The position numbers and the translations under genes are program-made. A model generated the notes under the pieces. That model made no database searches. It was not told the DNA's origin and saw only the letters and a program-made list of their open reading frames with translations. Of a stretch of 64,000 nucleotides of DNA, positions 3,458-44,492 are shown piece after piece. The DNA is from Echinarachnius parma (taxonomy: Eukaryota; Echinodermata; Echinoidea; Clypeasteroida; Echinarachniidae), in NCBI GenBank assembly GCA_037951105.1, contig JBAMJV010001325.1:1-64000 (forward strand), read 5' to 3'. The stretch's first letter is position 1. Every line of letters starts with the position of its first letter.

Positions 3458-6400
3458 CTAATAATGAGGAAGAACAAAGAAAAAATAATATTAATTTTTC
3501 TTTAAATGAAGAAGCAATTGAATAAAACAAAACATAATCAAAATATTATTTAATATCAAACAAGTATTATAGATGAACTAATTATATTCTTCATCATAAT
3601 CATCATGAACGTCAACATCATTCATCATTCATCATCGTCATCATCACCATCATCATTTTCATTGTCATCATCTTTATAATCATCATCAATCATCATGAAC
3701 ACCACCCCTGTTATCATCATTATTATTAAAACCATTATTATTATCATGGCTATTATATCATTTATTTTACATTACAATGTTAAATTAATTAATAAAATAT
3801 CAACATAATTATCATCATCAAATTAACCGATTGCCTACATGAATCTGGTGAGCCCTGTATTATCTCTACGGGAATCACACAATCAAATAAGAGGTTAACT
3901 TACTGCATTCTCCATGTTGATGAGTCTCGCTGTAGTTTCGCACAACTTCTGGTCTTTGTTATCCAGTTCCTGTGCAAACATGAAAACAAACAAGCAATAA
4001 GCTTGGAAGGTTCCTACAAAAAGCATTATTACACCAAATATACAACATTCACAACTTACAATTAAATCATATCCTGTTTTCATACATGTATCAAACGTTT
4101 TGTCATTAAAGTAGTAGCATATTTTCTTGATAGTCATCTAAAATAACAAATAAAGTAACAATATTTGCCTTACCAAAATAATAATAGAAAAGGTTTTTGA
4201 ATTGTAAAACTTTGACACAAATCATAACATTGATAATGGTGGCTACTTTAGAATCCCTAGCACTGTCTTTAGAAGCTTATGGGGCAATAAGAGAAACAAA
4301 CCTTAATAGCTGAATAAGACATGATTTATAATTCATATTCAAATTAAAAACACACATTTTTACAATATACAATGAACTGGATTATTTACTACATTATGTG
4401 AGGAATTATGTTCACTATTTATTGTTCATTGTTTAATAAATTTGTTGAAAAAGCGGAAATTCAATAAAATAAAATAGAATCCCTTGACATGGAAACCTTC
4501 AAAGACTGCTTTAAATTGAACCACCACCCAAAATTAATATTCTTATAAATGAAAGCAAATTGTTTTGGTAGTCCATTCCACCTACAAGTTCAGAATAATA
4601 GGCTTCCAGATAAAAATTAAATAACATGAAAACTCATCACAATACTAGCGTAAGTTTCCATGGGTCTGCATATGCAGACTACGGCTATTATATAGGATAT
4701 ACATGCCTTCGTGGCTCTGTCTCCAAACGTACGCGTCTATAGAGTTGGCGCACTCGCACACAATTGGCGCATACGGAACCATGAGGCCATTATGGTTCCT
4801 TAAGTGTTGGTGATTAATTATATTTTTACGAATTACACAACCCTTTGCAAAGTGTTGTACATCTATTTCATATCAAACACAGATACCAAAACATATAAGA
4901 CTATGTTGTCCTTTGCATGGTGGTCCCCTTGTAAACTTAGTTTCCCTTGTAAAAAGTAACAACAATTGGTTCAATCTGGATAACTTACAGCCTTGAGTGT
5001 CTCTATTTCATATTCCTTGCGTAAACGTTTCTCCTTCTGAACCTTCTTCTTAGAGTCCTTCTGCAATTGAAAACAAAAAAATACAAACATGACTTTATAT
5101 CTAGCCAAAAGGTAAACGCTTTGCCAAAACATATGTGTTTTCTTCACCATTTGTGACCGGCTATAGCAAAACCCACTTGTCGGTAAAAATAAAAATGTCA
5201 ATTTTATTCCATTACAAAGGCCTCATCACAAGCTTTCATTTGATGCTTTGTTCTAACTAGTTGGTCAATAATTGGCGAAGATATGATTGTTTCAATTTTA
5301 CAATCATAGGTCTTTAAAACACATTGATTGAACTTAAAATGCCCATTTCTTCAAATCATGAATTACCGACAAGTTCTCGGTTTTGCTATAGCTGGTCACA
5401 TTTATAAGCTTTATACATTTTTTTTCTAACAAAAAATAAATTACTGCATGGCAACTTATTGGGATGGTCTATCCTTTTTGGTCAATATTCCAAGCTGAGT
5501 TTGTATTTAAAACAAGAAAAATAACAGAAAATGAAATGTTTCCACCAGTAAAAAAGCCTTTGGGCTAAAAGTTCAATTATGTGCCCTTTTGATGTTGGGC
5601 CACCTTAAATATTATTACAGTAATGTTTCTGTTTGTCTAAACATGTGTGGAACATAGGGGGGGGGGGGGGGGGGGTGTTTCACAAAGATCCTAACTTGAT
5701 CTTAGCATTAAGATGGTCTTAAATATTATGGAAAGCCATTAGTGTCTTGAAACATTTTTATAAAAGTTATGTTGAAATGCATTAAATGTTGATTCAAATC
5801 ATATATATTTTCTAATTATCAAAGAGATTTCATGAATTTTATGTGAAGATTATGAATCTCTTTGATAATTAGAAAATATATATGATTTGAATCAACATTT
5901 TATGCACTTCAACATAACTTTTATAAAACTGTTTCAAGACACTAATGGCTTTCCATAATATTTAAGACCATCTTAGTGCTAAGATCAACTTAGGATCTTT
6001 GTGAAACACCCCCCAGGTACACTCCAGCAGGCTTTGCTGTGTTTGATATATGAATACATTACCAAACATTTTAACATTGGTATCTACCTTAAATAATATA
6101 CAAAATAAATGTTGTTTGTATAGCGCATTATACTTGGTCTCAACGGTTGCTTTGAATTCATATTCATAGCATTTTTAAACACTGGTATCTACCTTAAATA
6201 ATAATACAAAATAAAGGTTGTTTGTATAGCGCATTATATTTGGTCTCAATGATTGCTTTGAATTCATATTCATAGCATTGAAACACTAAAACATGACCAA
6301 ACATTCTAACATTGGTACCTACCTTGGTCGCCTTGATTTCATCTTCGTAGCATTTGTGTTTCGGCCACTGTTGTTTGTTTTTATCATCATTCTCCAAATG

Positions 6401-9400
6401 GAATGTCTGTAAAAAAAAAGATAGAACATTCTGGTCAGTTTTCTTCTTTATTTATTACAAAGTATAATATATTCAAAAAGTTGCATCAAATCAGTAGATC
6501 TCTTTTTACTCTGTAAGTTGATCCTTATTATTTGGGTTTTGCCAGGTTTATTTAGCTTCTTAGTAGCATGAGTATAGAAAATGATTTCAGGGAAGGACCG
6601 GCATCATAAGAGCTTCTAGGTTAACGGTCTGAGTACCGGTCTAACAATCCGACAGTCTCAGGTTTGATTCCCTTGGAAGCCTCATTATAATTCAGTTATT
6701 TGACAAAAAACAATAAAAACAACAACATTAGGGTACAAATTCGACAAAAATAAAGAATTCCAAAGAGCATTCCTCCTAATCAGTTGGACAAAGCTGGATT
6801 CCCACTGGCATAAAAATGGCACTTTATAACGGACTCTGTTATAAGAGGTACCTGATGTAGTGAGGCTATTTCACAGGTCCAGGTTTCTATTATTTTTAAG
6901 CCCTGATGCAATGAGATATCTGATATAACAAGGTAAATTCAATGGGCCCGAGGTGCTCGTTACAACAAGGTTTGACTGTATTACCTTTTTACTCTTGATT
7001 GCACCGTTAAGTCTCCTCTCCTTGTCCAGCTCCTCCCTGGTCCTTCTCAGGGTCTCCCTCAGGTAGTGAGACTCCTCCTGTCGACTCCGAACATCACCCT
7101 GAAAATTAGGAAATAATAAAGATGTCACAACATCGTAACTAGACGTAGTGCACTCAGGGAGTGCATACCTCCGCCAACACTCAAATTTTATAAAAGTAGA
7201 TGCGCATCTACTACAAGTATTCAGACAATGGTTTGAATAGGTGCTATTGAAGTGCATTAATGCATATCATTGACCGAGGTCCGTACAAACCTAATAATGG
7301 CGGCCTCCAGTGTTCGCGTAAATAGTGGTAAAGCCTATAGAGTTTTCACATTTTTCTTCCAAAGCAGAAATCTGAGTCGGAGTAATGTTACATATAATAA
7401 ACAGGAATATTACGATGTATAAAGTAGTATAAACTCTTTTCTTGAGTTGCATTGCCCTTTAATAAGAGTACTTGCAGTATTAGCTAACTTTGCTGGTTGC
7501 ACTGGCATAGATCTGTAAGTGATATCTTTTGCTCGGGAAAGGAGGGGATGATCGGTTCATTATTTGTTTGTTATACAGAATAATTTGTAATACCGCTATT
7601 AAATACTTACAGCAAGATTTTCAACCTGTTCCGCCTTCTCATTGGCCACTCTCTCAGCCAATCGCAGCTTCTCCAGGTCCTTCTCGTAGCCTTTCAAGAG
7701 GGCATCCTTTCGCTCCAGTCTCTGATTCAGGGTGCGAAGCCGGCTGGATATGAGCTCGTGGGCGCTGCTGCGCTCTCCTATGATGCGCTCTTTTTCGTCT
7801 CGCGGGAGGTGGGCGAGTGATTCCTGTCCGGGAATCTCTCCCAAACCGAGAAGGCGAGCTACAGAGGCTGCCATCTCCATGTACTACAAAGAAAGTAAAA
7901 TAAAAATTAACTAGAAAGTCGAAAATTATGCCTCCGCTATGACGCAATTTTCAATATCAAGCCCAAAATAACGTGCACTGAAATTGTGTTTTTTTCATAT
8001 ATATATTTTGAGTTCTGTGACCTTGACCTATGTAAACCCCAAACTTTGATGGCTACATTGGCTCCCAAGAATATTCAGGTACCAAGTTAGATTGAAATCT
8101 GACATTCAGCTCTTGAGATTTCGTCATTACAAGCCATTTTTGCATATATATTGAGTCATGTGACCTTGACCTTTGACCTCATGGCCCCCCAAACCTAATC
8201 CAATCATTGCCACCCGATGTGTGTGTAACTCATTCCAAGTTTGAAATTGATCCGTCAACGGTTCTTGAGATATCGTGAGAAGGATGCTTTTTGCACATAT
8301 ATTGAGTCCTGCGACCTTGACCTTTCACCTCATGAACCCCAAAATCTAATCAGATCATTGTCACCACAATATGTACACTCATACCAAGTTTGAAATTGAT
8401 CCATCAATCGGTTCTAGAGATATCGCGAGAATAAGGCATTTTTGCACATATATTGAGTCCTGTGACCTTGACCTTTGACCTCATGAACCCCAAAATCTAA
8501 TCAGATCATTGTCTCCCCAATATATACACTCATACCAAGTTTGAATTTGATCTGTCAACTGGTTCTGGAGATATCGCGAGAACGAGGCATTTAAAAACAT
8601 ATATTGAGTCATGTGACCTTGACCTTTGACCTCATGAACCCCAACATCTAATCAGATCATTGTCACCCCTATATGTACACTCATACCAAGTTTGAAATTG
8701 ATCCGTCAACCGGTTCTTGAGATATCGCGAGAACGAAAACGGGACGTACGTACGGACTGACGGACGGACGGACAACCCGAAAACATAATGCCTCCGGCCA
8801 CTTCGTTGGCGGAGGCATAAAAATACATTGATTATAATGAATATTATGATAACTACCCTAATGATGATAGAGATGACGATAATAACTTCTACAATGGTGA
8901 TAAAGATAAAGATTATGATGATAATGAAGGCGGTAGTGAAATTGTGACAAATTTAAAGTTGAACTTAGATGATAAATTGTACTAAAAGTAATTGTAAGCC
9001 ATTCGCAGCCTTTGAAAAAAAACACATTCAAAAGCAAACATATTTGAAACTTTAAGAAATAGTATGTCAAGAACACTTAATCATCTTAATAGAAAATAAA
9101 TCTGATTTAAACTAAATTCTATGCTGTAATTTCAAATAAATTTATAAATTTGACATATCAACCAATGGCAGTTCAGTCTTAAAGTTAAAGCTCAACTTAA
9201 AAATCTATGTGAAACACCCCCTGGACTTACAGTGCTCTCGCTCTTGTCCATGGCCTGCTGGATTTCAACCCTGGCGCTCCTCTCGATAGCTGCGTCCGAG
9301 ACCGAAGTCGAGACCTGTCCCCGGGCCTTGGCCACCTCACGTTCCAGAAGTATGTCTGCAGATGGCATGGTGCCAGCCATGGTTGACATCTGGGCCTGTT

Positions 9401-12400
9401 TGGCTCTCATCTCGGCCAGTTCTTTCTTGAGCAGAATAACCTGCTGCAAGGCCTGGTCTTGCGTTGGTACTAGAGGGAACCAGAACATCAAGACATTCTA
9501 ATTTCTTGATCATAGAATTGAATAGTATTTGACATATTAAAGGGACTTAGTAACATTGTCCAAATCCTCAAAATAAAATTTTAATTCTAGCGGTTCCCTT
9601 ATACCTTGTTGTATTCGTATGAACAATAAAATCATGGGACAGGTTTCGGTTTTTCAAATTTCCCTTTCGTTACAAAGATATGTATGATTGAAGTATTCAG
9701 ATAAGAACAAGAGCCCCAGGGGGGCACGACGCTCACCTGAGGTCAATCAATTCACATCTGGCGCATGTTCTCTCTGGCACCCTCAGAAGATATGAAATCA
9801 GTTGAAATCATGCCAAAATCTATAATGTGATGTACTATTTAATCAATAACTTTTGATCCCCTGTACCTAACATTATGATTTACCATAATGTTTGGGTGAA
9901 TCATAAAAAAAGACAGACACACATATAAGACAAAGCTTAACACATTTCATCAGCCACTGACCACTTCAGCATATTAACCCCACTCACATAGGGACCCTAT
10001 GGGGCCATTCTGCGATATGACAACTTGCATTGTCATTTACCGTAAATCTCCGTGTGTACGGCGCACTCGTGTATAAGGCGCACCCCCTACTTTCTAAAAA
10101 AAATAAATTTTGTTTTGGGACACACCATTATAGCACATTTTGTTCCTCTACCCCTAAGGATGATTCCTGTCAAGTTTGGTTGGAATCCAATCATTGGTTC
10201 TTGAGAAGAAGATGAAAATGCATATTTCGTATGGTAGGGCCCCCCAAAAAATGTTACCCCCACAGGGCCCTTATGGGGCCACCCAAAAACATCTTGTGAA
10301 CAACTTTCATTCTTCATCAATAGAGGCATCTACATATGAAATATCAGGTCTGTCATACTTCTGGATCTTGAGAAGAAGATGTTTAAAATTTACATATTTT
10401 TTACACTTGGTGCCCTCCTCCAGGGCCCCCCTGGGGGCCACGCCCACCATTTTAGCAACTTTGGTTCCTCTACCCCTAAAGATGATTCCTGCCATGTTTG
10501 GTTGGAATCTAATCATTGATTCTGGAGAAGAAGATGAAAATGTATATTTCCTATGGTAGGACCCCCCAAAAAACTGTTACGCCCACAGGACCCTTATGGG
10601 GCCACCCACAAAAATCTTGTGAACAACTTTCATTCTTCATCAATAGAGGCATCTAAATATGAAATATCAGGTCTGTCATACTTCTGGATCTTGAGAAGAA
10701 GATATTTAAAATTAACATATTTGTTACACTTGGTGCCCTCCCCCAGGGCCCCCCTGAGGGCCACGCCCACCATTTTAGCAACTTCGATTCCTCTACCCCT
10801 AAGGATGATTCCTGCCATGTTTGGTTGGAATCTAATCATTGGTTCTGGAGAAGAAGATGAAAATGTATATTTCCTATGGTAGGGCCCCAAAAAAAACTGT
10901 TACGCCCACAGGGCCCTTGTGGGGCCACCCACAAAAATCTTGTGAACAACTTTGATTCTTCATCAATAGAGGCATCTACATATGAAATATCAGGTCTGTC
11001 ATACTTCTGGATCTTGAGAAGAAGATGTTTAAAATTTACATATTTTTTACACTTGGTGCCCTCCTCCAGGGCCCCCCTGGGGGCCACGCCCACCATTTTA
11101 GCAACTTTGGTTCCTCTACCCCTAAAGATGATTCCTGCCATGTTTGGTTGGAATCTAATCATTGATTCTGGAGAAGAAGATGAAAATGTATATTTCCTAT
11201 GGTAGGGCCCCCCAAAAAACTGTTACGCCCACAGGGCCCTTATGGGACCACCCACAAAAATCTTGTGAACAACTTTCATTCTTCATCAATAGAGGCATCT
11301 AAATATGAAATATCAGGTCTGTCATACTTCTGGATCTTGAGAAGAAGATGTTTAAAATTTACATATTTTTTACATTTGGTGCCCTCCCCCAGGGCCCCCC
11401 TGGGGGCCACGCCCACCATTTTAGCAACTTTGGTTCCTCTACCCCTAAATATGATTCCTGCCAAGTTTGGTTGGAATCCGATCATTGGTTCTGGAGAAGA
11501 AGATGAAAATGTAAAAAGTTTACGGACGACGGACGACGCACGACGGACGACGCACGACGCACGACGCACGACGGACGACGGACGACGGACGACGGACGAC
11601 GGACAAAAAGCGATCACAATAGCTCACTTGAGCCTTTGGCTCAGGTGAGCTAAAAACTCCGGGCGAGTTTTTCTTCCGTGTACAAAGTGAGTGCAGTGAG
11701 TTTCTGAATATCACTTTGCATTTTCGCTCATTACTTGGCCATATAATGTCCATTTGACTTGAAATTTTCACACAATACCCTGTGGACATATGAGATAACA
11801 ACAATATACATTCCATCAACCATTCATCACTTTTTGCACATGTCAACAAAGTTACTAGATCCCTTTAATAGGGATCATAATAGTTCTTTCTTGAGCAGAA
11901 TAACCTGCTGCAAGGCCTGGTCTTGCGTTGGTACTAGAGGGAACCAGAACATCGAGACATTTTAATTTCTTGATCACAAAATTGAACAGTATTTGACATC
12001 TTAATATGGATCATAATTTGATTTTAAACAGATATCCTTAGATCTAGATGTTGGCTGAATCCTTGAAAGGCAATAAAAGAAGGCCTCATGGTCTTGTGTT
12101 GGCACTGTAGGGAAACGGAACATCATCAAGACATTCTCGAATAAGTCACTTCTTTTGTGTGTGTCTCTCTATACAGGGTGGCCCCAAAAAAACGGAACGG
12201 GGCACTTCCCAAAATATAGTACCAAACTATTTATGTCCATCAGATACGATGTCTTTTCCAATGAAAAACGATACCAAGAACAGTAATTTCGGTCGTGTAG
12301 TTTTTGTTTTAGGACGCTGTGAGTGAGACCATGTCAGGTGCCAATTTTTACCTGGTCAGGGCCAGTAAAACCGCACTCAGTGCCCGTAATACCATGCCCA

Positions 12401-15400
12401 TTATCTCGGCACACGGTCAATGGTGCGCTGTACTGTGTATACCTATGAAAGGCGGTGCGTGCGGTTTTACTGGGCCTGACTAGGTAACAATTTACAAAAA
12501 ACGGAACCTGACATCATGTCACTCACAGCGCCCTAGAACAAAAACTACTCAACCAAAATGGCTGTTCTTGGTATCGTTTTTCATTGGAAAGGACACCCTA
12601 TCCGTTGGACATAATAATTGTGTTGCTGTATTTTGGGAAGTGCCCCGTTCCGTTTTTGTTGGGCCACCCTGTATATGAATGTCCCTCCATCGCTGGATGA
12701 CCATTTTGTTGACAAGGTTCAGGGGGGTGTTTCACAAAGATCCTAAGTTGAACTTAACTCTAAGTTGGACTTAAAAAGTATGGTAAGCCATTTGTAGCCT
12801 TGGAATAAAATATATTTTAAAGCAAAAATGCAAGTATTTTTGAATTTTCATACATTTTACATGAAGAACATGAAATCTCCTTAATAATAGAAAAATATTA
12901 ATGATCTGAAACAACATTTTATGCCTATTAAAAGTACTTTTACAATTTTACTTCAAAGAAACTAACGGCTTTCCATACTTTTTAAGTCCAACTTAGAGTT
13001 AAATTCAACTTAGGATCTTTGTGAAACACCCCACAGGTCCTCATCCATGCAGTCCATCCCCCCCACTCAAAAAATTATGATCCATCTTTGCAGAGAATCT
13101 TCTACATCACTGGCACACACATAACGATCTGTTTTAATCAATGATCCATTCCACGTATAATGTACATTAATCTACTTACATGGAGGTCTGTTAGTCTCCA
13201 GTCCCTTGATTCTCCCTCTGAGTTCACCCAGCGCTTCTCGTTGCCTAGCAATCACCTCGTTGTGCCTCTCTCCCCTACACTGAGCACCAAAAGATGACAA
13301 CTCACTGGTAATCATACCCTGGATAAAAAAAATGTTAAAAAGAGTTTTTTGTTCGTTCAAATCTTTGATCATCAGTGTGCATTGCACAGACTTCCTATTC
13401 AGTAATACATGTATGTACATAAACAGATATTATGCACTCCCAGGCAATTCTTTGTCTGGCCCTTTTAATTGGCTCGCCATGGCAAGTTTGAACATACATG
13501 TATCGCATACTGCTATTTATATTGTGCAATATACTGAAATAGGCAATGGTAATCAACCAATAGGAGAGCTCCTTTTCACTACTTTCTGAAGTCATCATCT
13601 TATATATAGAAATTTGTATGAATTTTCCTTAAAAAGTTCATGACTGACTGAAATGTAACTGAAATGTAAGAACAAAGCATTATCACTTCTCGTACCTCTT
13701 GCTCCACGGTCTCCTTTGCCTTCTGGGTCTGCTCCTGCTCCATGTTCAGTTGATCCTTCAGCCTGTGCAGCTCCGACTCCTGGAGGGCGCCATCCTTCTT
13801 CTGCTTCAACAGGAGTTCCTTCTGTGCACTGTTGGTGATAATAATGATAATAATGGTTAGTCGAAATAGAGTTATTCACTTGAAAATCTAATAGCACAAA
13901 TAGACCCACTGAGTTTCAAATTTTTAAAAATCCACTTGAATCAATTTTGTAGACAAGTTTGAGAAGGAAAATAGTTATATCCCCTATTCACCTACAATGA
14001 ATAGAAAGGCAGGTCAGCTCGTTTAGGAGTCTGAGTGTCTACATAATTCATTGAAAGCTTATCTATTCTGTGCATTCAAGAAACAAATTAAAACCATGAA
14101 TAATCTCTTTTACAGGAAGTAAGACAACATACGTGATCTCTTTGGCCATCGAGTCCATCTCTTGACCTTTCTTGACCACCAGCTCCGATAGTTTGACCAG
14201 CAAATAAAAAAACACATTTATAATCCTTTTTAACAGCAGAAAGCAACATACGTGATCTCTTTGCCCATCGAGTCCATTTCTTGACCCTTCTTGTCAACCA
14301 GCTCCGATAGTTTGACCAGCTGCTGTCGCTGGGTGGTCAGTTCGGCCTCCTGGTCCCGGATCAGCGCCTGCTGGTTCTCCATCTGCTCCTTCTGACGGTC
14401 ACTCAGCTCTCCTGCAGGAGACAAGGAAACAAACCATAATAATTAAAGGAATCTAGTAAATTGGAAACAACCAAATCAAATCATGCTTTCAAAACTTTTG
14501 ATTTTGATAATTTACTCTAGATAATAATGACAAAACTTGTTAATCCTTCATCTGTTATTGAACCTTTTGTATGGTTAGTGTCAAAAAATACCTAAACATG
14601 TGAAATTATTTGAAAAACGCATGGTCATCATGTGTTTTCTTTTTAACAAGGCAAGTCTGTATCATCAGCATTCTAAGAGTTAAAGAGACTGTGTTGTTGT
14701 GTCAAAGGGCACGTCATGAAGAGATAACAGGGAGAAACCATGTTGATACATATGCTGCACACTCTGTATCTTACATACAATAGACTGTTGCATGAGTGAC
14801 AAGCTTACACAAAATTCCACCAGATTCTGGAGACATGGTGCGGCCCTCTGCATATCTGCATTTTTTATGATGCATTGCCTTTAATAAAAAACAATTTTGT
14901 GACCTACCTGTCATGTCTGACAGCCTGGCTGAAGCTCCAGCCAAGTCTCTCCTCAGCGCAAGAATGACGTCCTGCTGGTCTTGAATGTCCTTCTTCAACT
15001 GACCATTCTCTTTCCTGTAAAAGAGAAATTAGAAAAAAAGTTTCAAATAGGGATACAGTAAAAAATAATATTTTAAACCTGACAGGTCTCTCCATTAGAG
15101 CAAGGATGCTATCCTGTTGGTCTTGTATATCCTTTAACTAACAATTCTCTTTCCCATAAAAAGAAATCCAAACAAGTTTGCAGATATAGTCAAAATGATC
15201 TCCTTCTCACACATGTTACTACATAAATAAGTTAGTGCTATGGTACGTTTAGATATATTTCAGATGACGAGTCTCTCCATGAGGGCAAGGATGGTGTCAT
15301 GTTTACAGATATAGTCAAAATTATCTCCTTCTCACACATACTACATAAATAAGTGTACGTTTAGATATATTTCAGATGACGAGTCTCTCCATTAGGACAA

Positions 15401-18228
15401 GGATGTGTCATGCTAGTTTTGCATATCCTTCTAAAAGTAACTGATCTCGTTTCTGATCAGAGAAAACAGAAAAGCAGGAAGGAATATTTACTGCTATTGT
15501 CACAATATCAGCCATCTCCAATCTAAAAGTTAGATATACTACGGACAAATGTCTTTCTTTAGCACAATAATGAGGTCTTATTAGCCCTGAATATCCGTCT
15601 TTAACAGATCGTTCTCCCTCCAGTAGAGAATACAAATTGATCCTTCAATATAGTGAGTCTAAATAATCACATTACAATGTTATTTACTGTCGTTTTCAAG
15701 TAAGATATCCTACAAAAATGACAGGTCTCTCCTTAGTGCAAGGATTTCACAATGTTATATGATTTTGACACATTGGCCACAGGAACATGGTGGGCACTGT
15801 ATAAACTCTATATGGATTGCAAAATCTAGTAGGATAAAGGTTAATTGATTGGATTTGAAATGTTACTCACTTGTAAAGATTGATGGTGTGTTGGAGTGCA
15901 GGGACTTCTGCCGAGGGCTGAGTTACGATCACCGGCTTGGCTGGGGAAGAGGCCTTCAGTCTCTTCACTTCCTCTTCTGCTGCCCTTACTTGAGCTGAAA
16001 GAAATAAGAGACATATATTGTTGGTGCAAAATCATGGTTACCATAGCAACTCCTTGTCCAACATATACACAAAATTTGACTTGCACATTCTCACCTCAAG
16101 AACATTAAGCTTAGGCCTACCAATTTTCAATAAAATCACTAAAATTGTGGAGGTAGTATGGTTAAGACGGTTTTTGAATCGACAGACCCACGCCCGCCCG
16201 CACGACCAATAACCTGACCACACGACCGTATGCTCACTCCTATATACCCCCTTTCAAACTCTCTTTGATGGGTGTAACTTGGAGGATTATCACAAACGAC
16301 AATCAACCAAAATGTAAAAGGGAACAACAACAAAAAAACTAGACATACCTTCCATCTTCTTCTCCATCTCCTTAACCTGATTGCGAGCGGCCTGCTGAAC
16401 CTGAGATGTCTTCTTGAGTTTCTCCTCATAGGTGACGATTGTCAAGGAGTGCTGATGAATCTGCTCCTTGTACATCGCCACCTGTTTCTCGTGCGACTCC
16501 ATCATCTCACCGACTTGTCCCTCCAGCTTGAGAGCCGAGGTCTTGTGCTGCTCTTGCTCTAACCTCAGCTCCTCTCGAAGCTTGCTCTGAAAGAAAAAAA
16601 AACAGCATAAAGTAGTTATAAAATAGTCGTGAAAATTGTAATAGTTCTCATATTACTGCATTTATTTCACAAACCTTGAGAGCCGAGGATGTTTGCTGCT
16701 CTTGCTCTAACCTAAGTTCTTTTTTAATCTTGCTCTAAAATAAAATACAACACTACACTGCTTGATAATCAAGGAAAATCGTGAATAACAGTTCTCAGAT
16801 TACTGCATTATTTCACCAACTTGTTCTTCAACTTCCAATCCAAGTTATTGTGTTGCTTTTGCTTCTCTCAAGCCTGCTCTGAAAAATGACTGCAACAAAT
16901 TTATAGATACCTCTTGCAATGCCTTACAGGTTGATGACTGATTATATAGTTCAATGCACAATAACAAACTAGAAGTATAAAGTCTACATGTATAATATCC
17001 AGCATGGGTGCATGTTGCTAACCCAAGTGTTTTCATTACTAATTTGCACCAGCCCTCTCCTAACTGATAATGCAAACATGTGAGTGTTCAGCTTAGTAGA
17101 CATGTAATGATGTTTTGATGTCTAATTAAAACAGTGCTGGTACGAGACTTGTGTTTACCTCATCAGATTTTGATGTCCTTCCAATCGTTTAACAAATGTC
17201 TTGTCACAACTTTTCATTCCCATGCTAAATGAAAAGGTAAACAAATCACTACGAATGTAACAGGAAGCCTGCCTGAATATTGATTTGTTGATTTTTTTTT
17301 TCTCCTTCTGGACTTCAGCAGTAAGAGAAAGTTTTAAAGGTGTGTAATAATTATTCCCTGCTAAACATTAAACGTATATTACAGTTAAATAGCCATTGTA
17401 ATAGTTATTGCCACTAATTATACTTTGTACACCAGGTGCTGAGAGCACGATCATGACCCAGGACCAGCCCTAGTTCCACTGATCTCTAGTAACCTTTACG
17501 GTTGAATGAGTAAAGGAGGTATGTGTACTCTGCTACGTTATGTTAATTTGTATGCAATTCTAGCATATTGACATCGATGAGTTAGAGCCAATGTTGCTAA
17601 TTACCATGGTAAATGTCGCTGGTCCGTAATCGGGCCCCTGCCCCCGGGTTCTTGCAGGCAATAGGTTTATTGTAAACTGGGAATTGTTTAACCCTCTCCC
17701 TTCTCCCATTTACTTTGTACATAGTTCCCCAGGTTCCCATAAGTAAAGGGTTTATTGAAGGCAAGCTCCTTACCAAATAACCTCAAAGTGACCCGAGGTT
17801 ATTGTTGTTAGCCTATCTCTTACCTCTTCATTTTGCAGAGCTTCAATCTGTACTTTGAGACTGCTCTGCATGGCTGTAAACTTCTCCTCTTCGGAGCCCC
17901 TCTCTGTCAAGGCCTGAATATATATCAAATTAAAATAATAAATCAATAATACAAACACATGAACATAGAGCTTCTGCACAATCACCCTTTTATAATGATA
18001 GTACTTAAAGTACAACTTTGTCAGAATTGTCCTTAATATCACTCCTCATCTGAATCATAGTAATTCTAAACTTTACATCATCGTCATCATCGTAATCACC
18101 ATCACCATCATCATCATAATAATCATTACAAACCAGTGTAATCATGTCCATCATCATAATCATTATCATTATTGTCACTTGTCATTATCATTCATCATCA
18201 TCATCACTATCACCACCTTCATCATCAC

Positions 18229-18267
<39 letters not shown>

Positions 18268-18274
18268 TATCATT

Positions 18275-18320
<46 letters not shown>

Positions 18321-21300
18321 CCATCGTCATCATCAACATCATCATCATCATCATCATCATCATATCACCATGGCAACCACCTGGTCACACTCACCTGTCT
18401 GAGTTGTTCCAGACTAGCCTCTTGGTGTAGGACCTTCTGTTTCTCAGCCTCCATTACTTCTTCCAGTCTCGTCCTCTCGGCCTGTCTTGCTTCCTCTATC
18501 GCTGTTTCTAGTTCCCTACCACCTGATTAAATGAAACAAATCATGATGGCACAATATTAATAAAACAAAATAATAATAGTAATGGTGGCGATCGACTTAC
18601 ATAGCAGGAGTTCTGTTTTATGATGCTCGTGGCGCATCATTTTATTACCCTAATCATTACACACTGCAATCTTCTTATTAATCGCGAGTAAAATAAAGTG
18701 ACAATCGGTAGGGACCCATAGCTTTCGATCCTAGCAGATTCTTTATCGGGGCAAAGTAGAAATAAATACATGTAGACTATAGACCATAAAGACCCATTCA
18801 CACAAATGCGAACCGGGGGAACAGGGGATATTCTTGTATGCTTACTCTCTAGTTTGAGCTTCTCAAGTTTGAGTTTCATTGTCTCCTCATGCTCTGTCTT
18901 CTGTCTCTATATCTGTATTGTTTGTTATTTGTTTGATTATCTGTTTTTAAATGTTGAAAATTTAGAAATAAATGAATCAAATCACTTCAAGACAATCTTG
19001 TACTCTTGCTTACTCTCTAGTTTGAGCTTCTCAAGTGTGAGTTTCATCGTCTCCTCATGCTCTGTTTTCTGTCTCTGGATCTTCCTCTCCATGTCGGTTC
19101 TGACCTCAGATGACACAGAGCCAGCGCTCATCTGAGCCTCTTCCTTCAACTTCTTCTCCTTCTCGTACTGAGTGCGCAGGTTTTCAATGTGTGCTTGAAG
19201 ATCTGAAGAAAATAAAAAGTGATTGGAAGGAAGTAAGGAACGTTAGATCATGTTTACAGGATTGAGAACATTTATATATATAGGTACATTTTGTAAATGG
19301 AGAGAAGTTCAAACATCATCTTCATCATGAGCCTTAGTATCATTTCAACATATACTATATTATCAGCAGCAGCAGCATTATCATCATCATCATCATAATC
19401 ATCATTACACTCTCATTTCCATCAACTTTACTATCATAATAATGATCTTTATGATCTTTTATCACAGGGAAATTCAAAATACTGAATTAATTTCTGTTCA
19501 AATTCTAGTTGGCAGACAAGTTTTTAGTAAAAAGTAGTTCAACTCCTAAAAAATATAATAACATTTTGAAATGCTGGACTATTATTATTTTATCATTATT
19601 ATCATTAGTATAACATGAAATAGTTTGTTTTGTTCACCTTTCCCGCCAGTCTTGACATCGAAGCCACACCTCTCTAGCGTGCTCTCGAAAGTCTGTTGCC
19701 ATGCCAACTCATTCTGCAGCATCATTGCGATGGTGTCTTTGACGCTCTGCAACGATTCATCTACTGTGATGGACTGGAGGAGTTTGATCTCATTCCTGAT
19801 GTGGGAGACCGTCCGCCCACCTTCACCTAAGCGGTTCTGAAATGGAAGACAAATAGCAAAGTTAAAGAAAAAGTTAAAGGAAACCAACACACCCAAATAA
19901 TCCTTTTATATATGAAAAATGTATTTTTTTAGTAATCTATTCAACCCGCAACTTACCATAGATTTTAGATATTGATTCCCCTTATTATTATTATGTATAT
20001 CTTAACTACTTAAATTAGACAAAATAGGAAAATCTATATCATAATTAGCACCATTAATATCTTTAGATGTGTCATAGAATAAATTGCATTTTGACAGTTT
20101 GGAAATTAAATAGGTATAGAACAAGTTGCCCTATCTACAATCAGCACTGCCTAACATAAACTTACTTCTGCAGCAATGAGGTGTTGTTTGAGAGTCTTGT
20201 GGCTGGTCTTCGTTTCCTTGCTGGAACTCTCCAGACCTTTCATCAAGTCCTTGAGTTCCCTGGCCTTTCCACGTGCCTCAGTGCGCTCTGCAATCAGCGT
20301 CTTCACAGTCTCAACGAGTCCGTCGTCCGTCACGTCATCCTCGTTGTCCGGCACGCGGAAGCCCGGTGCCGAGAACGCAGTCTGCATTATCCGCGTACGG
20401 AATCGCTCAAGCTATAGGTGTGGGAATTAAATAGGAATTATACAATGAAGCTGATCGATTTAACAGACACAGATTCAAAAGTATATTCAATTAGTAAAAG
20501 ACTATTTAGGAAAATACAAAGATTGATTCCGGTGTCTGAATAGTGCCCTCTTGTATTAACAGCTGCTATTTGAATGTAAACAGTGTCCTTAATTGAACTT
20601 AAAGATTAATTTCTACCATTTGAGCATGGTAGAATGATAAACATTAGGAAATACAAGTTTCAAGAGACTAAATTGAGTTCAACAAGCACCTTTTTTCTGA
20701 GCCACAATATCTCTGGCTTAAATATATAATACGTAAATGAACTGGTCAAGAATTAAGCAATCTCTACTGACCTGTTTCCTTGCTTGGTCAATGTCCAGCC
20801 TGGCCTGTTTCTCCACCCTCTGTGATTCTAGGAACTTCTGCTTGAAGCTTTCCTTCTCGTCCGCAACCCTGTCCTGGATCTGGTAAAGGAGAAAAAGGGA
20901 AAGAAAATTACGATCTTTGCAGAGATTTTATGCATCAAAAAAGAAAAAGGGATGTAAAAAACACCAGATAAAAATCTGGAAATAATCATGAGCGTGTTGA
21001 CATAGTGATCATACAAAAATAACGATGAATATTGTTATTTCAGATGAAGACAAAAAGTATAATGCATTATTTCTTAGCAAGTTCTTGGAGTAAATTTCTT
21101 GAACAATTGGATAATACAATATTTCTTTGCTGATTCAAAAAGTATAGAAGTAAAACGAAAAGGATTATGGGATCATTTTGGGGTGATATATATACTTAGG
21201 TAAGTATACTTTATTTTTTATTTTTTATTTTGCTATGACAATTAAAGCTACCATGCATACCTTCTTATTTTCCTCTGCCTGTTCGGTCAGTGTATCAATC

Positions 21301-24300
21301 TCCTCTTTCTGTGCAGCCACTTGCTGCGTCAGTGTCTCGATCCTACTCTCTGCTCCCTTCAGTTTCTGTGCACATGAAAGTATGGTAACAAAGAAAAATT
21401 ATATTGGTTGTGAATAGTCAACAAATACCATATCAAAATAAAACATGTACATCATTGACATTATGTAATTAGACAGGGCTCGAAATCTATACACAGGCCT
21501 GCTGGCCAAGGGCAACAAATAATGAGCATCCGGTAACATAAATGTCAAATATTACTTGCTCGAATTGGCAACCAACATTAACAGACTTCTTTATGTTTTT
21601 CTTTGTTTGGGGCCGCTATAACAAAAATGTTGGTATCGTTTACGAACAGTAATATTAGCATATTCCCAATGTGCTTAATAACACATGAAGAAAACATTAC
21701 AATTAATATCAACCGAACAATTAATAGCATTATCAATTACATTTAAATAACTTTAGATGGAGAGTATGTATGCACAATTATCAATATGAAATCATTACCA
21801 TAATTATTTTCTAAAAACGCTTATTCAGATATTCCATGAGACATTATTTAAATTGTTAACATAAGTTTTGCATAAGAGACATAAATCACATATACACATC
21901 AGACATGGGAGACATTGGGGGAAACAGCAAGCTATTACAAACTCAAGCAATTAGCCACCATTGTGAAGCAATTAACCCATTGCATAGATATATAGAAACT
22001 TGGTGTGACCTGTAGTAATTCTTAGTTGGCAACAGGTTTAATAAATAGGTGCTACATACATTTCAGTGCACATATTTCCATGAACATTTCACATCCATGC
22101 TCAGAGACTGGGAGAGAGCTCAATATAACTATTTGCTTAGCTCTGCTTCAATGTTTAAACAGCCCCCTTCTCATGCAAACATGGATTAAAACTTCAGTAG
22201 TCAATCCTTAAAACATATATAAGCACATTACTACTAGTACTGTACAATGTAGTATTTGGCCATTGCTTCCAAATAACAGTAACCTGTCACAAAAAACAGT
22301 AAATTATCTGATAACCCCTTTTGAGCTTTCTTGTAGGCTACTCTTTATTCCTATCCTTCACATATGACACTAATAATGTACGTAGGTGTACTATTATTGA
22401 TAATATACTTTTAGAAGCAAATCCCTTCATATTTTAGTGGACAAGTGGATTTGAGTTCTCGCTTGTGTTTCGACATGTATTTAGAACATACTGCATGGCA
22501 ATATTTTTCTTTTGATGTGAACAAAAACAGCAATCTGAAATAAAACAAATTAAACAAAATTTGAACCACTAAGACGGCTTACAATGGATATCTTTTAAAT
22601 ATGTACAGCGCTAAATATTTCAGGGATATGGAGAATGCGGGGTATAGTAGTTTGTTTGACAGTTTAATACAGTACATGCATGCAGGATATGGGTTTTTAC
22701 AGATATGGTAAGCTGTACATTATATGGATTTCTTACATGCAGGGAATTACATCTACTTGGACAAAGGTAGTACAGTCTATGCCATTTCATAAATACATTA
22801 CAATTGTGTTTGAATATTCAATACTCTGGAATAAAGAATCACATATACATGTAACTCTGATGGTTAGTGATTTACATAGCGATATGAAAACTTTATATGA
22901 AGTGTTTACTGGGAAAGGATATGGCAAAATTACATGATTTAAGGTATAGATGTAATTTGATCAAATGCATAAATGGCATGCAATTTTTTATTTATGCTTT
23001 ACTGTTCTTTTACTTGTTTGTTAATAAGTGTCATCCCAAGTTGAAATTCCCATAGAAACCCATAGGATAATCCTATTGGTCTCTATAAGTTTCTATGGGA
23101 AATGTCTATGGGTCCCATAGAAACCCATATGAAACCCATAGGACAATCCTATTGGTCTCTATTGGTTTATATGGGAAATGTCTATGGGTCCCATAGAAAC
23201 CCATATGAAACCCATAGGACAATCCTATTGGTCTCTATTGGTTTATATGGGTCCCATAGAAACCCATATTCCACTTTCCCTATTGAAACAAATATAAACC
23301 ATTAGGCCCATGGGTTTCTATTGGTTTTGGTTCTATGGGAATTTCGACCTGGGATAGTGCTTACAGTTACTGTTTCAATAAATGCTACATGTATATTCAA
23401 GCAACCCAGCTAGCCACCTGACGTTGGGCCGATGTCGGAATTTGGTTGCCGGATGTCGGCATATCGCCGTTGGCTCGAGGTTAAAATGTCCGCCAGCCCA
23501 ACATCGTCACGACGTAATTTTTGTGATATATTGGCATAACGTCATTTTCCGACAATGGCCCAACATCATCTCATGACATGATGTTGGGCCATTGTCGGAA
23601 AATGACCTTATGCCAATATATCACAAAAATGACGTCGTGACGATGTTGGGCTGGCGGACATTTTAACCTCGAGCCAACGGCGATATGCCGACATCCGGCA
23701 ACCAAATTCCGACATCGGCCCAACGTCAGGTGGCTAGCTGGGAAGCTACATGGTCACATGTACAGTCATCATCATTATCATAATTAACCTTTTAATGGGT
23801 GCGCACACAATATTCAAGCAAGCTATATGTATTTAAAAGCACACAGAGTGCACATTTTCACTCCCCAGGGAGCATATAGAAGTGTTGCAAGCAAGTGATT
23901 TACAGTTGTAAGGTTGAAGTAATGGTTTACTAGGCACATAATATACAAGCAAGCTTCATGTACATAAAGCACATAAAAGTGCAAATTTGAACTCCCCAGG
24001 GAGCATAAGGGATTGTTGCATGCAAGTGACTTACAGATGTAAGGTTGAAGTATTGGGAGTCTCTTGCATAGAGAGACTTCTGATAAGATGTGATTGCAGC
24101 CTCTAAATTAGAGTGGGACTGGTTAAAGTGTGACAAAAAGCATAAGAGATCTTATACAAGAAAGACATAAACATAGATCAGAAATTCAGTTAATACAGTG
24201 TGAATGGTCATTGTGGTTATACATATAGAGGAACAAAACCATATAACTGTTTTCAACATTGTATGGTTCTTGTGCTTCTCGTCTAACTTCTGATGAGGCA

Positions 24301-27300
24301 AAATTGCAGTCTCTTTTATGGACAGAATCTATTACTTTGACAGTATAAGCACAATAAAAGACAGTGAAAGACAGTGAAGAAGATATTAACAAGTGTGATG
24401 GTGTAAGAAGAGAGCAGTATCTGGCTGGTGTATAATACAATCATGTCCATAAATGTAATCTCCAGAGTTTTATAAGCGGCATAAACCATTTTACAGATTG
24501 ATTTAATGTGACAGAATGTGTATACTGTATGCAGAGAAAATATTCTAGCAGATGTTCAGGAAAATGTGCCTTTGACCCATTGATGACAATTTGGACGATA
24601 CTAGTGACAAAGCATGAATGTTCTATGCGCCAACTATATATATGATTTGCGCTAACTATATATATATGAATTTTGCTCGAACACTTACAGATTTGATGGC
24701 AAAGTATTCATTATCCCGTGTGAACATAGTTTTCTGGTACGCTCCTAAAGCTGTCTCCAACTGAGACTATTATATACAAGGTGTTAGTCCAAACCACACA
24801 GAAAGACAGAAAATAAATGAGTTATGATTAGTACAGTAGTTATTTATTACCACTTTCCCGTTAAGATTCTGAAATTCCCATAAAGTTGGTATAATTTGCT
24901 AGGTTCCAGTAGACAGGGGGTTAATTGTATCATTGTATTGCATGCATAACAGTATGATGTTTGCTGCATCACACACTTCAGTCTATTTGTATTTATTCTT
25001 TCTACCTATTGTTTGAAAAGAAGGACTAGAATTGTTTGTTTAATGTTAGTCAGAAAAGATTAAAAGAAAATTAACAGTCACACCACAACTGAAAGAAAAT
25101 GTTACTTTACTATACAATCCATGTATTTAATAGGATTTGTTTTGTTATCTCTGACCCTCACAATTATTCATTGTTCAAGATTGAAGTACATGGTTTGAGT
25201 TTCAGCTCTAAAATACATTATATATGAAGAATGAAATTATTTCAAGCCTAAAAGCACTACAGTCAACTTGACCAGTCAGCTAGACCAGTCGGGGCTGGTT
25301 CAACATCTTGAATCAGCCCTGACTGGTGTTGGACTGGCTCCCAACTAGCAAAAATCTGAGTTGTGAGGCAACGCTCACTGACTGATCCGACTGAAAACCA
25401 ATTTGGTTCGAGTTTAGCTGAAGTATTGATACGCACACACAGCAGGATACAATGCAAACTAAGTGATTATGTAAAGCTACATGTAGCTGGAATCCTGCAC
25501 ACCAGCACTAATTAGGCAGCATGAGGTTGAATTACATATTTTGAGAGTGACTACCTCCTTTTTATAAGATACCGGGAAAACAAGGTAATTGTCAAGACCT
25601 CAAGGACCTCCTTATATTAAGCTTCTACTTTAGCTGGAATCCTCACAAAAGCAAATCAGCTAGATATTTAAAGCAGCACTAGATTAACTTACATGTTTGA
25701 GAGTGACGACCTCCTTGTTCCTCGCAGCCAGCTCCTCCTCGTGCTTCTTGGTCTCCCTCATCCTGGAGAACTTTGCCGCCAGGGCAGACAGCGCCACCTC
25801 CTTCTCCCTCAGCTCCTTGCGCAGGAGCTCCACCTCTCCCTTGTACCTGGTGAGGGAGCCCTCCTTGGTCGTCAGGTCCCGCTGGAGCTTGGTCATCAGC
25901 GCCGAGCTCGTCCCCTTCTCCTTCTTGAGTTTCTCCAGCTCCAGGCGGAGGGCGACGAGCTCCTTCTCCCTCTGGTGGAGCAGGGATCGCAGGTGCGCCA
26001 CGTTTTCCATCGGATCCGAGCTCTCCAGCCTCATCTTGGACATCTATGAACAAAACAACAAAAAAACATTTCAAGAAAGTAATACAAAAGTTTGAATTCC
26101 TACAAATCAGCAGTTCCATATTGGAAGTGTATTGTCCTACTGACATAGCCCTTTAAATAAGATTGCTGTCTCTTTGTTTCAGCCAGCCATAATACGTTGA
26201 CTTCATCAATGAACAAGGTCTATCATAAAAACAAATGAGAGATACAATATAACATAATCCTCTATCTCCCCCCAAGTCTTTGGCGCAAAAAGGAACTCAA
26301 ATCCGCAGTGCAACAAAGACTTTAAAAAAGGCCTAATGATCGACAACAAGAGTAAAAATGTAAGAACAAAAGCAACGCAGCTGCAGTGTGGAACTGTACA
26401 GACTTTTTGGTTTTATTTTTGTGTTTTAACGGTTTTCAGCAAAGATGGGGAAACGACAGCACCAGTCAGATAAAATACCGTGTTCATAAATCAGATTGCT
26501 GTCTCTTTGTGTCAGTCAGCCGTAATACGTTGACTTCATCAATGAACACGGTCTATAATAAAAAACAAATGAGAGATAATACTCTTGATTAAGATTACAA
26601 TATAACATAATCCTCTACCCTTAAGTAAACTGACTTCCTTCTCCAGGTCCGTGAGTTTGACCTGGATGGATGGGTCAGCGAAGGAGGCCTTCTGCTGGGC
26701 CTGGTGAATCTGGACGATCAGCAAATAGTGCATTGATATTTCCCTAAAATGAATTGACCTATTGTCATAAAGTGCATTGACCTACTGACCTTTTCTTTGA
26801 GTGCATTGACCTCGAGCCGCTTGAGGTTGACCTCTTTCTCCATGTCTTTGAGTTTGAGCTGGATGGATGGGTCGGCGAAGGAGGCCTTCTGTTGGGCCTG
26901 GTGCACCTCGACGGACAGTGAGTCCATGTCTGACCGCAGCTGGTCGATGACCCCGTCCTTGCGCTTGGACTCGGCCTCGAAGACGGCCAGCCGGTTGATC
27001 TCGTCTCCCATCCTCAACAGCTTCTGGTCCTGTATGTAAACATGCAAGACAAGCAATCAATTAGTCGGTTGAGAAAGAGAAGGGCGCTAGGTCACTTTTT
27101 GTAATTTGGAGATAGTCATGTTTGAGGTTTGAAAGTCATGTATGAAAGCCATGTAGCTCTCTAAATTTGATAAATAAAATTTCCCCAAATTAGATATAAA
27201 CATGTGAACAATTTGCATCAGATGGAGGAGGCTCTGACCTACAAAATGGTGAGCGGAACTCAATTTGGCCAAAAAAATGACTTAATGCCCTTCTCACTCT

Positions 27301-30300
27301 CACCCAAGATTGGTAGAGCGCCTAGCTGCCTTCTAATCGTAAAGTCTGTGTTTGAACTGAACTATGCCTAGATGTTATCTTGTTTGCAGAACTATTTTTC
27401 TCTTCATTAATGCTACCAAAGTCCTTCTTAGGATGCTCTAGTTAACCCTGAGCCCATGCATTGCAGGACTAACTGATCATCGCAAAACCCTGGATGCTTT
27501 TAGACAGCATCTTGCATTATACAGGGTGGCCCAAAATTGGCAAAAATGGGAACCTGACATGGAGTTACTCAGAGCGCCCTAAAACAAACACTACATGACC
27601 AAAATGACTGTTCTTGGTATCGTGTTTCATTGGAAAAGACACTATATCCGTTGTACATAATCATTTTGTTACTATATTTTGGGAAGTGCCCCGTTCCGTT
27701 TTTTTGGGCCACCCTGTATATCTCTGAGCACTCCTAGTTTATATTTCTTCTATTTGCTGTCCTATACTGACCTTTTCATGAGCGGCAAAGACCTCAGTAA
27801 CGGGCGAGCTCCTGGTGTTCGGACTGCTGGACATCTGAGTGGACGCCATACCACGCTGACTACCAGAACTGACCCAGCCACCTGTCACAGCTGCCCAGAG
27901 AAAAATATAGGGAAACTTAAAGATAAAATAAATTTTGATAACATTCATATCAGTGAAACAGAAAATATCATTCATTTTGATAATTGCCAAAACCGCACTA
28001 TATCAGTAAATTTGTAGCATTCAGACAACATTTACATCATTTAGTAATACTAAAAATAAGTTGACAACATAAAACTCTTATAGTACAAGACAAAAGGATG
28101 GAAATATTTTGGTTAAGCCTAGGGTGAGAACAGAACATGGAAAAACTTCAATCTCGTTTCAGGGATCAGATATTTGGAATAGTATGCCTTTAGAGATACG
28201 GAGACTTGATAGACTCAACCTTATTAAGATAAATGTAAAAAAGTATTTATTTAGTCAATATGTCTTGTAGTGTTTTGTGAATTGCTACCAAACATAAAGC
28301 AATTTTTATTCTCTTGAACAGATTTTACATGTTTTATATAATCTTATAGTTTAGTAGTTATTAGTGTGTCCACTATTGTAAATACTTAGTGTAGAAAATA
28401 GTGTAGAATGTTATTTAATCTTGCCTTAGTCAAATGTAAGCATATCGTCTATTCATGTACATAGGGTCCTACGCCCCACTAGCAAAAGTTGCTATTTCTG
28501 TAGGGTCCTTTTACCAGTTTGTTTGTCAACATTTCTTATATTCATGTATGATTGTTATATTGTTATCTTATTGGTAATAAAGTTATTCATTCATTCATTC
28601 ATTCATAAACATCTTGGTTGTCAATCTATTACTGGATATACATGTACAATAGGTATACCAATTCAAATTAGAACATACTGTACATACTTCATACTAAATT
28701 GGAGGGGAAAAAATAAGGTGAACAAAATAAGGTGATTAATTAAAACTTCATAAAAGTTGGAATGACTCTGCAATTATCAATCCCTGGAACTTAGTATAGC
28801 ATGTTTATTTAATCATAGTTTTTTGCCTCATTCAAATTCAAATATATTATTATCTCCATGTACAAAGGGTACTACGCCCCATTAGCAACAGTTGCTATTT
28901 TTGTAGGGTCATGTTTCCAATTTGTTTGTATGTAAATTTTTTTGTTTACATATGATTGTTATCTTGTTATCTTTGAACATATTGGTGATAAAGTTATTCA
29001 TTCAACTATGTTTTACAGGGTACCACCACCCATAAATAATATTCTTATAAATGAAAGGTAACATCTTTAGTAGTCCAATCCATCAACAAGTTCCGAAAAA
29101 TATGTTTCCAGAAAGAAAAAAATAATAATTGGAAAACGCATCACATTCTAAAGCATGCGTTCATGGGTCTGCATGTACGAAGACTACCTTTGTCCAGAGC
29201 GAATCGTCCGGGATTCTATCGTCTCCAAACGTACGCGTGAATAGAATTGACGCACTCGCGCATGTTTGGCGCGTACGGAACCACAAAATAATACTGGTTC
29301 CGTAAGTGTTGGTAATTAATTGCATTGTTTATGAGTTACACAACCCTTTGCATAATGTTGGGTATATCTATTTGATATCCCAAAACGGAACCAAAACATA
29401 TAATTATGTGTTGTTCTTTGCCCGGTGGTCCCCTTTAAGGTCAAAGTCTTTAATAGCAAGGTATTAAATACACAATAGTGACAATACAAAACTAAAACAA
29501 TGGTTAAATCAAAACTAAATATAAACATGGTTAAGGAACATTACCTCTCCTGGGAGGGAGGGGGCTGTTAGTGGGGCTCTGGCTGGAGATATGCACCCCA
29601 CCCCCAGTCCCCGGCCCACTGCCACTGCCCCTCCTAGTTCCAGCGCTCGAAGGCCTGGACCTCGGCGGTCTTGGTATAACCCTGTCACCCGCTGCCCCCG
29701 GTGCTGGTCCGGGGGGCGGCTGGGCACCCCAAGCTGAAGAGGTGGGCGGCTGTGTACCCCATGATGTTGAGGAGGGGGGCGGTTGTGTACCCCATGCTGA
29801 TGTAGGGGGCATGTTACTGCCCCCCTCATAGGGTAGCGTTGTTTGCTGCATGGGTGCGTAGGGGGCACTGGTGCCTGATACCATGGAGGGGAGGTAGGGC
29901 AGTTGAGACACCTTGAGGGAATATAAGAAAAGTGATGTTAATTGACTTCATAAATATTTCTGGTACAAATGTTATTTCGTTGATATGGCGTACTGTAGGA
30001 AAACAGACCAAACTGATTGACAGAAACCTACCCTAACATTTCTTGGTACTAATACCTACGCTTCCATTTTAACCCATTGTAAAATCATGACATGATCGTG
30101 CAATCCTTACGCATCTGCTGTTCCCCCCCCCCCCCCCCCCTCCCCCACCCCCCCCAAAAAAAAAATTAAAATAGTGTTGGTTGATTTTCCTAGCAAGATT
30201 AATCAGTATAAAAGTGTCATGAGTCTGTGCTCTATTTTCTGAGAGTTTTAGATGTTTATAAGAAAGAAAAAAAAAGTTATTACCTAATCTTTAATACACA

Positions 30301-43650: not shown

Positions 43651-44492
43651 TTATCATTCAAAAAGAGCCGTTAAAACGTACTTTCTAATGTACCAACTTA
43701 ATGTCCTTCTCACTCTTAACCAACGTTATAATATAACAAAGACCTTGGGAAGTTGGGATCATGACAATGACCTTGCTATATCATGAGCCTCGTTATATCA
43801 GTTTGATAAACAAAATGATATATAAGTTTTTGATTACGGCAGCGAAAATACGTTCTTTTTTAAAGTAACATGATTTTTTTTGTATAACAAGGCTCCACTG
43901 TACAGCCAACCTGGCATTCTAGTCAAATCCATTTGTACTAGCATAGATATATAGCTTGGAATTGGACACAATTTTGACTAACAAGTGTTTGTTACAAAAA
44001 AAGAATAGCTTTTGAATACATTCAGCCTAAAAAAAGTAAATTTCAGATACAAATTTATATGTATTTCCCCAAGATCTAAGACTGGTCTTTCTTATATTTG
44101 TCTGCCAGCACATTCCCTCTAGATAACTTTCCCTTCAGTATAATGAAGGGTCAAGTCAAAAGTCAAAATTAAAAAATAAAGTTCTTTTCATTCAGGAGGT
44201 CTCAAAAATATCAAATCTCCAATTGATGAAACTGATTTTTTTTCTCCTCACTCATAAGACCCTTATCTTTCTGCCTGTAGCTTCCTTACAAAACTGTGAT
44301 GAAATTGAAGGGTCCAAATAAAAAAAAAAACATTGTTCCTTTCATTCAGTCACAAAGGTCGAAGCTATTAAATGCCTGATACGAAACTTAATTTTTTAAT
44401 TTTTCTCTTGGCTCTATGCCTCTCCCCTCTGCAGTTTCTCACTGATCTTCTAACAACATCTTGTTACAAATAGCAGCATCAAATTGATAAAA

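Follow-up and report, generated by a model that had tools for sequence, protein, structure and literature searches.

The 64,000-nucleotide stretch of Echinarachnius parma DNA analysed here (contig JBAMJV010001325.1, positions 1 to 64,000; hereafter the window) carries on its minus strand a long gene which, judging by its architecture, we take to be FHAD1; the names SZRD1, TTC36 and SFI1, given to the three other genes recognised in the window, are likewise our presumption. The FHAD1-like model was built by hand from the minus strand of 1-32.3 kb, from sequence alone. It comprises 26 exons, 4,269 nucleotides and 1,423 codons, with no internal stops and with AG/GT at the internal boundaries. Pfam places an FHA domain within the first 520 amino acids of the product (E=6e-14), and a search of solved structures with a 361-amino-acid coiled-coil stretch gave no match. 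An initial annotation of this DNA had proposed that the introns of the gene hold decayed copies of their own exons. All counts below come from one 64-kb window, itself picked for the exon-copy pattern.

The intronic copies of FHAD1-like exons are confirmed as real, and all nine of the exons first named were recovered: 9 of the 26 (exons 5, 6, 7, 12, 15, 17, 18, 21 and 24) have a copy in an adjoining intron. Evidence came firstly from a nucleotide search of the exons against the exon-masked window on both strands. At E<=0.01 this returned ten matches from eight exons (5, 6, 12, 15, 17, 18, 21 and 24), every one of them in the adjacent intron and on the same strand. Twelve more rows fell at E 0.01-1, among them one adjacent same-strand match (exon 17, 15745-15722, E=0.1); the other 11 look like chance, including four that lie in the intron next to exon 21 with the reverse orientation. 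The copy of exon 7 was added by tblastn, which matched the whole exon (E=4e-6) at a DNA identity of 58%. By a hand list of the alignments, about 473 of the 4,269 exonic nucleotides (11%) are matched by intronic sequence with an identity of at least 80%.

That scores no better than those of shuffled sequence would undo the claim had been recognised from the outset. The introns of the gene, with 600 base pairs (bp) of flank, were compared to 200 dinucleotide shuffles. At a score of at least 20 the real sequence gave an adjacent same-strand match for eight exons, whereas the shuffles gave a mean of 0.005 exons each (maximum 1); in the same introns and flanks none of the exons had a non-adjacent or reverse-strand match at that score, and lowering it to 18 admitted a single non-adjacent opposite-strand match. 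Chance similarity is thus ruled out by the shuffles and by the non-adjacent-intron and opposite-strand controls. Self-similarity of coiled coils was rejected as well: at E<=0.05 the exon peptides match their own adjacent introns alone (nine matches, eight exons), and extending the search to E 0.1 adds one other row, exon 22 against an SFI1-like exon (E=0.059).

Copies do occur on both sides of their parents, as first described, but the range of 80-2,400 bp given for them needs correction: the nucleotide search gives distances between 44 and 2,412 bp, and exon 21 has another copy about 2.6 kb off. For the eight partially copied exons the offset to the nearest copy is 75 to 197 bp (taking exon 21 without its insertion, described below), and the whole-exon copy of exon 7 lies at a distance of 654 bp. 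In all ten parents with an edge copy, a downstream copy contains the 3′ part of the exon and an upstream copy the 5′ part (binomial p=0.002; by hand list, FHAD1 exons 5, 6, 12, 15, 17, 18, 21 and 24, SZRD1 and SFI1), the TTC36 copy being omitted because it lies beyond the last exon. Orientation is direct for 12 of 12 parents on the hand list (these ten, exon 7 and TTC36; p=0.0005). To the description of many copies as keeping the 3′ part with its splice donor, and of some as keeping the acceptor side, two corrections apply: the exon 5 copy stops 38 nucleotides short of the donor, and exon 7 is copied whole.

Several of the pairs are tandem repeats. Adjacency and a shared strand characterise all ten matches at E<=0.01; beyond this, the repeats at exon 15 (16820-16675 / 16674-16527) and exon 18 (14320-14202 / 14201-14081) abut exactly, the units of the repeat at the exon 7 copy (exon 7′; a prime marks a copy) lie within 9 bp of abutting, and exon 21 joins them once its insertion is removed. 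Alignments of the copies of exons 6, 12, 15, 17, 18 and 21 run across the splice site into the intron, which places the copying at the level of DNA and not of spliced RNA; a retrocopy of spliced RNA is ruled out on these grounds. Coordinates are collected in Table 1, where two of the exon 17 copies, at 15301-15270 and 15745-15722, are weak.

Table 1. Parent exons, copies and associated features in the window (positions from its first letter)
Feature	Positions	Strand	Remarks
FHAD1-like gene, 26 modelled coding exons	3904..31884	-	open frame of 1,423 codons, AG/GT boundaries; exon 1 = 31884-31789, exon 26 = 3969-3904
Exon 5 (parent)	26790..27029	-	gene model
Exon 5 copy (exon positions 112-202)	26631..26721	-	downstream at an offset of 197 bp; identity 85.7%, frame open; possible cassette exon
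Exon 6 (parent)	25693..26043	-	gene model
Exon 6 copy: 3′ end, donor region and intron	25467..25563	-	downstream, offset 156 bp
Exon 7 (parent)	24689..24766	-	gene model
Exon 7′, whole-exon copy, 84 nucleotides	24035..24118	-	open, AG/GT at both ends; tblastn, 84-nucleotide boundary by eye
131-bp tandem repeat over the exon 7′ 3′ end with its donor	23803..24056	-	alignments, self-comparison
Exon 12 (parent)	19014..19202	-	gene model
Exon 12 copy (positions 121-189 and donor)	18827..18914	-	downstream, offset 168 bp; contains stop
Exon 15 (parent)	16349..16586	-	gene model
Exon 15 copy: intron, acceptor and first 60 nucleotides	16675..16823	-	upstream, abutting, unit 145 bp, CAAG at junction
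Exon 17 (parent)	14908..15014	-	gene model
Exon 17 copies, up to five, 5′ part (some with acceptor side)	15068..15745	-	upstream, decayed
Exon 18 (parent)	14252..14411	-	gene model
Exon 18 copy (positions 92-160, donor and intron)	14081..14201	-	downstream, exactly abutting, unit 119 bp
Exon 21 (parent)	9231..9469	-	gene model
Exon 21 copy: intron, acceptor and first 52 nucleotides	11882..12010	-	exon part 100%, intron part 90.8%
Second copy of exon 21 acceptor region	12080..12137	-	alignments
TTAA-flanked insertion, 2,328 bp	9537..11864		inverted ends, 30/39 columns identical; inside exon 21 tandem repeat
Exon 24 (parent)	6323..6406	-	gene model
Exon 24: two 3′-part copies and a copy of the donor region	6043..6279	-	downstream, within 106-bp tandem repeat
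Copy of 5′ part of SZRD1-like exon	51126..51202	+	upstream; parent region 52222-52296; dispersed element between
Copy of 3′ end of TTC36-like last exon	44391..44477	-	downstream; parent 45634-45534; same dispersed-element family between
Copy of 3′ part and donor of SFI1-like exon	63520..63660	-	downstream; parent 63828-63685; unit 168 bp

Two side observations belong with this inventory. Directly after the exon 5 copy, intron 5 contains a direct duplication of purely intronic sequence (26154-26277 / 26487-26626, minus strand; 93% over 120 aligned sites, with 24 gap columns). In the exon 15′ stub (16675-16734, minus strand), which is 60 nucleotides long and in frame, the tandem junction itself has formed an apparent donor, AAG|GTTTGT.

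A critical issue is the process that made the copies. Very probably they are short tandem DNA duplications, each spanning one end of an exon, that have since decayed in a mostly neutral fashion; abutment, common orientation, intron flanks and the relation of side to part all favour the repeated short tandem duplications that figured among the causes first suggested. Such duplications would keep arising along the locus. Where only one end of the duplicated stretch lies in the exon, with the opposite end in an intron, the unit joined to the remainder of the exon would stay a working exon and the other would become an intronic stub: a unit over the donor would leave, downstream, a stub with the exon's 3′ part and donor, and a unit over the acceptor would leave, upstream, a stub with the 5′ part and acceptor. 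When the duplicated unit extends over a single splice site, the relation of side to part follows necessarily from tandem duplication, whereas random insertion would produce it half the time; geometry alone accounts for the donor in downstream stubs and the acceptor in upstream ones. With, as a rule, one splice signal and not two, a stub should escape splicing, be nearly neutral and decay; we infer that the stubs are without effect on splicing. Stubs may sometimes re-expand into arrays or be split by later insertions, and a unit containing a whole exon could yield a new one, as perhaps at exon 7′. The molecular trigger was presumably slippage, unequal exchange or microhomology-mediated repair. 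One gene thereby holds a graded series of edge duplications, from the near-fresh (exon 21) to the barely readable (exon 17).

The outlier at exon 21, 2.4 kb from its parent, bears on whether mobile elements made the copies, either by capturing exon sequence or through repair following excision. Elements do lie between copy and parent at exon 21, SZRD1 and TTC36. At exon 21, however, when the 2,328 bp enclosed by TTAA sites are taken out, a 161-bp repeat remains (90% identity, offset 132 bp). Because this repeat extends to both sides of the insertion, the element arrived later and only separates the copies. The outlier is an originally abutting tandem duplication, later split by an insertion. 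Nothing lies between the copies at exons 15 and 18, and all 12 parents have direct copies. An origin through elements is accordingly highly improbable, and the suggestion that recombination was seeded by miniature elements is not supported, the exon 21 element sitting inside an older tandem repeat. Transposon-borne capture is rejected on the position of that element, on the 12 of 12 direct parents and on the contiguous copies at exons 15 and 18.

Copies are also found beyond the FHAD1-like gene. The SZRD1-like gene, for which Pfam reports SUZ in one piece (E=6e-9; the other piece is below the cut-off), and the SFI1-like gene at 63 kb each have the one case announced for them, and the TTC36-like gene has one too, absent from the initial annotation. 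Because the SZRD1-like and TTC36-like genes are affected, a coiled coil is not needed, and the link first drawn to a coiled-coil gene can be dropped. As to identity, Pfam finds TPR domains in the TTC36-like gene and no domain in the SFI1-like exon; in the search of solved structures the TTC36-like exon drew weak TOM70 matches only, which do not help to identify it. A dispersed element with internal repeats of about 150 bp has three occurrences in the window (approximately 7925-8830, 44525-45430 on the minus strand and 51227-52130 on the plus strand) and twice separates an exon from its copy, in the SZRD1-like and the TTC36-like gene. Subtracting about 900 bp for the element would give offsets of about 200-260, an estimate, as in SZRD1 the motif did not locate one end of the element. 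The window further contains long palindromes at 5670-6014, 12170-12675 and 23386-23762 (94%, 78% and 94% in self-comparison), which resemble hairpin-type miniature elements, and two tandem arrays, at 40863-41756 (93-bp units) and 53853-54587 (152-bp units).

Joining of two haplotypes in the assembly offers another route to adjacent copies: in a divergent diploid, a section of one locus could appear falsely duplicated in tandem. Such an artefact is scarcely credible, since exon-part divergence that ranges from 0% to more than 25% within one gene, a multi-copy array and a split by an insertion are all unlike haplotype overlap.

How the copies have evolved since their formation speaks to the proposal that selection keeps them as spare or alternative exons. 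Across eight pairs the mismatches at codon positions 1/2/3 number 18/10/33, a ratio of position 3 to the mean of positions 1 and 2 of 2.4, where we expect about 2 if one copy is constrained and its partner is free; with four exon 17 pairs added the counts become 30/23/60. The pattern fits that expectation. Mismatches fall at every codon position, with no sign in them of general selection on the copies; the copies of exons 6, 12 and 17 contain stops or frameshifts, and most copies have a single splice signal. The decay of the copies proceeds without general constraint, and as a general explanation the keeping of spare exons is very unlikely, contrary to one of the causes first entertained; exon 7′ may be an exception.

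What favours spare exons comes from three copies – 5′, 7′ and 15′ – whose lengths, read by eye, are multiples of three, which are open, and which have AG and GT at their two ends. In exon 7′ the proportion of non-synonymous differences (pN) is 0.31 and that of synonymous differences (pS) 0.82 (14 of 17 synonymous sites). A pN below pS suggests constraint, and exon 7′ is a candidate working exon, either as one extra coding exon or as the alternative partner of exon 7; its share of position-2 changes nevertheless equals that of the other copies (Fisher p=1). For exon 5′, of 75 nucleotides, the non-synonymous and synonymous divergences (dN and dS) are 0.12 and 0.38, a ratio that, on 13 changes, decides nothing because one constrained parent alone drops dN/dS to about half. 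Exons 5′ and 15′ are possible cassette exons, and exon 15′ possibly a newborn one.

Against tandem duplication followed by mostly neutral decay stand several observations. The copies of exons 5, 6 and 12 have 49-107 bp between aligned blocks with no visible homology, so that for these three a tandem origin is deduced from position only, and in the exon 5 copy no intron sequence is seen. Microhomology is clear at the exon 15 junction alone (the 4-bp CAAG), none of the other seven printed junctions clearly having any. Over six pairs with both parts, exon sites have diverged less than intron sites (38/352 vs 54/329, p=0.03), but adding the pairs E17c, E17d, E21b and E24a evens the two (90/556 vs 72/430), so the contrast is not robust. 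Finally, the duplications touch exon edges more often than a model of uniform placement predicts (p=0.008-0.016), an excess that leaves room for a bias missing from the plain model; we treat it as suggestive, a lead.

That excess comes from a census of tandem loci inside the gene, made by a scan of offsets of 50-700 bp together with a BLAST self-comparison, with the loci classed by hand and with microsatellites, palindromes and an element-borne array at 8.1-8.7 kb omitted. Eight of the 12-13 loci touch an exon edge (the exon 6 locus from the BLAST self-comparison only). The four or five that do not lie at 28974, 26573 and 23262, in a 323-bp array at 10.1-11.5 kb and, if exon 7′ is no exon, at 24064. 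Simulation at rates of our choosing puts the expected edge share at 24% under uniform placement and at 29% when conserved exons stay visible longer; detection bias raising the expectation only this far, it does not account for the whole excess. Longer visibility of the edge pairs themselves might do so: if they are visible twice as long p becomes 0.05-0.09, and if three times, 0.18-0.27.

A mutational preference of tandem duplication for exon edges, drawn for example by the step in GC content (55% in exons vs 36% in introns), would explain 8 of 12-13 loci against the roughly 29% expected under conservation-aware detection, and would sit well with the single cases in each of the three other recognised genes. 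Human duplications are reported to be GC-richer than random regions, though these are large-scale events (PMC9365719). On the other side, the window was selected for the pattern, the counts are small and the loci hand-classed, copied exons are no GC-richer than uncopied ones (p=0.96), and longer visibility of edge pairs brings p to 0.05-0.27. On balance we consider such a preference unlikely, though worth following. A bolder version, for which we would put the chances as low, has duplications of roughly 100-250 bp in this genome preferring exon-intron boundaries and sowing partial exons with one signal, of which 5′ and 15′ would have gained the missing signal and 7′ would join them as new in-frame coiled-coil exons, making the introns a nursery for exon birth. 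Should the edge excess hold genome-wide, it would indicate a hotspot of mutation, one that keeps supplying raw material from which new exons can form.

Tandem duplication of exons is well documented. Unannotated intronic copies were included in the survey of Letunic et al. 2002, as cited in PMC9013439. Ivanov & Pervouchine 2022 (PMC9013439) likewise matched exons against their own gene and took tandem genomic duplication as the cause; with annotated targets included, they give the share of exonic nucleotides with a homolog of at least 80% identity as about 2% for human, 0.08% for fly and 0.06% for worm. The roughly 11% found here was obtained with another aligner, from one selected gene and with intronic targets only; moreover, in difference to that set, the copies in the FHAD1-like gene, affecting 9 of 26 exons, are mostly partial exons with one splice site. 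The 'intronic' and 'inter-boundary' classes of Exonize recognise degenerate intronic exon copies, and its partial, inter-boundary and intronic events occur in more genes than full ones (PMC12343006). Its intronic class requires a minimum exon fraction, and small stubs like the present ones may therefore escape it.

Two further systems offer parallels. In intron gain by tandem duplication (the Rogers model), a duplication in the potato RdRp gene overlapped the intron-exon structure (PMC4974935), and there as here the duplication takes in splice signals. Unlike the potato case, our copies lie inside existing introns, and in the single species considered the hand-built model is open on the parent splice sites alone. 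The origin of mutually exclusive exons is similar in that the duplication carries an exon together with flanking intron (PMC6071210); exons 7 and 7′, the sole whole-exon pair here, are the only candidate for such an arrangement. Intron gain and mutually exclusive exons are related results of this one type of mutation. The density of copies in the FHAD1-like gene looks unusual; the process underlying them is already known.

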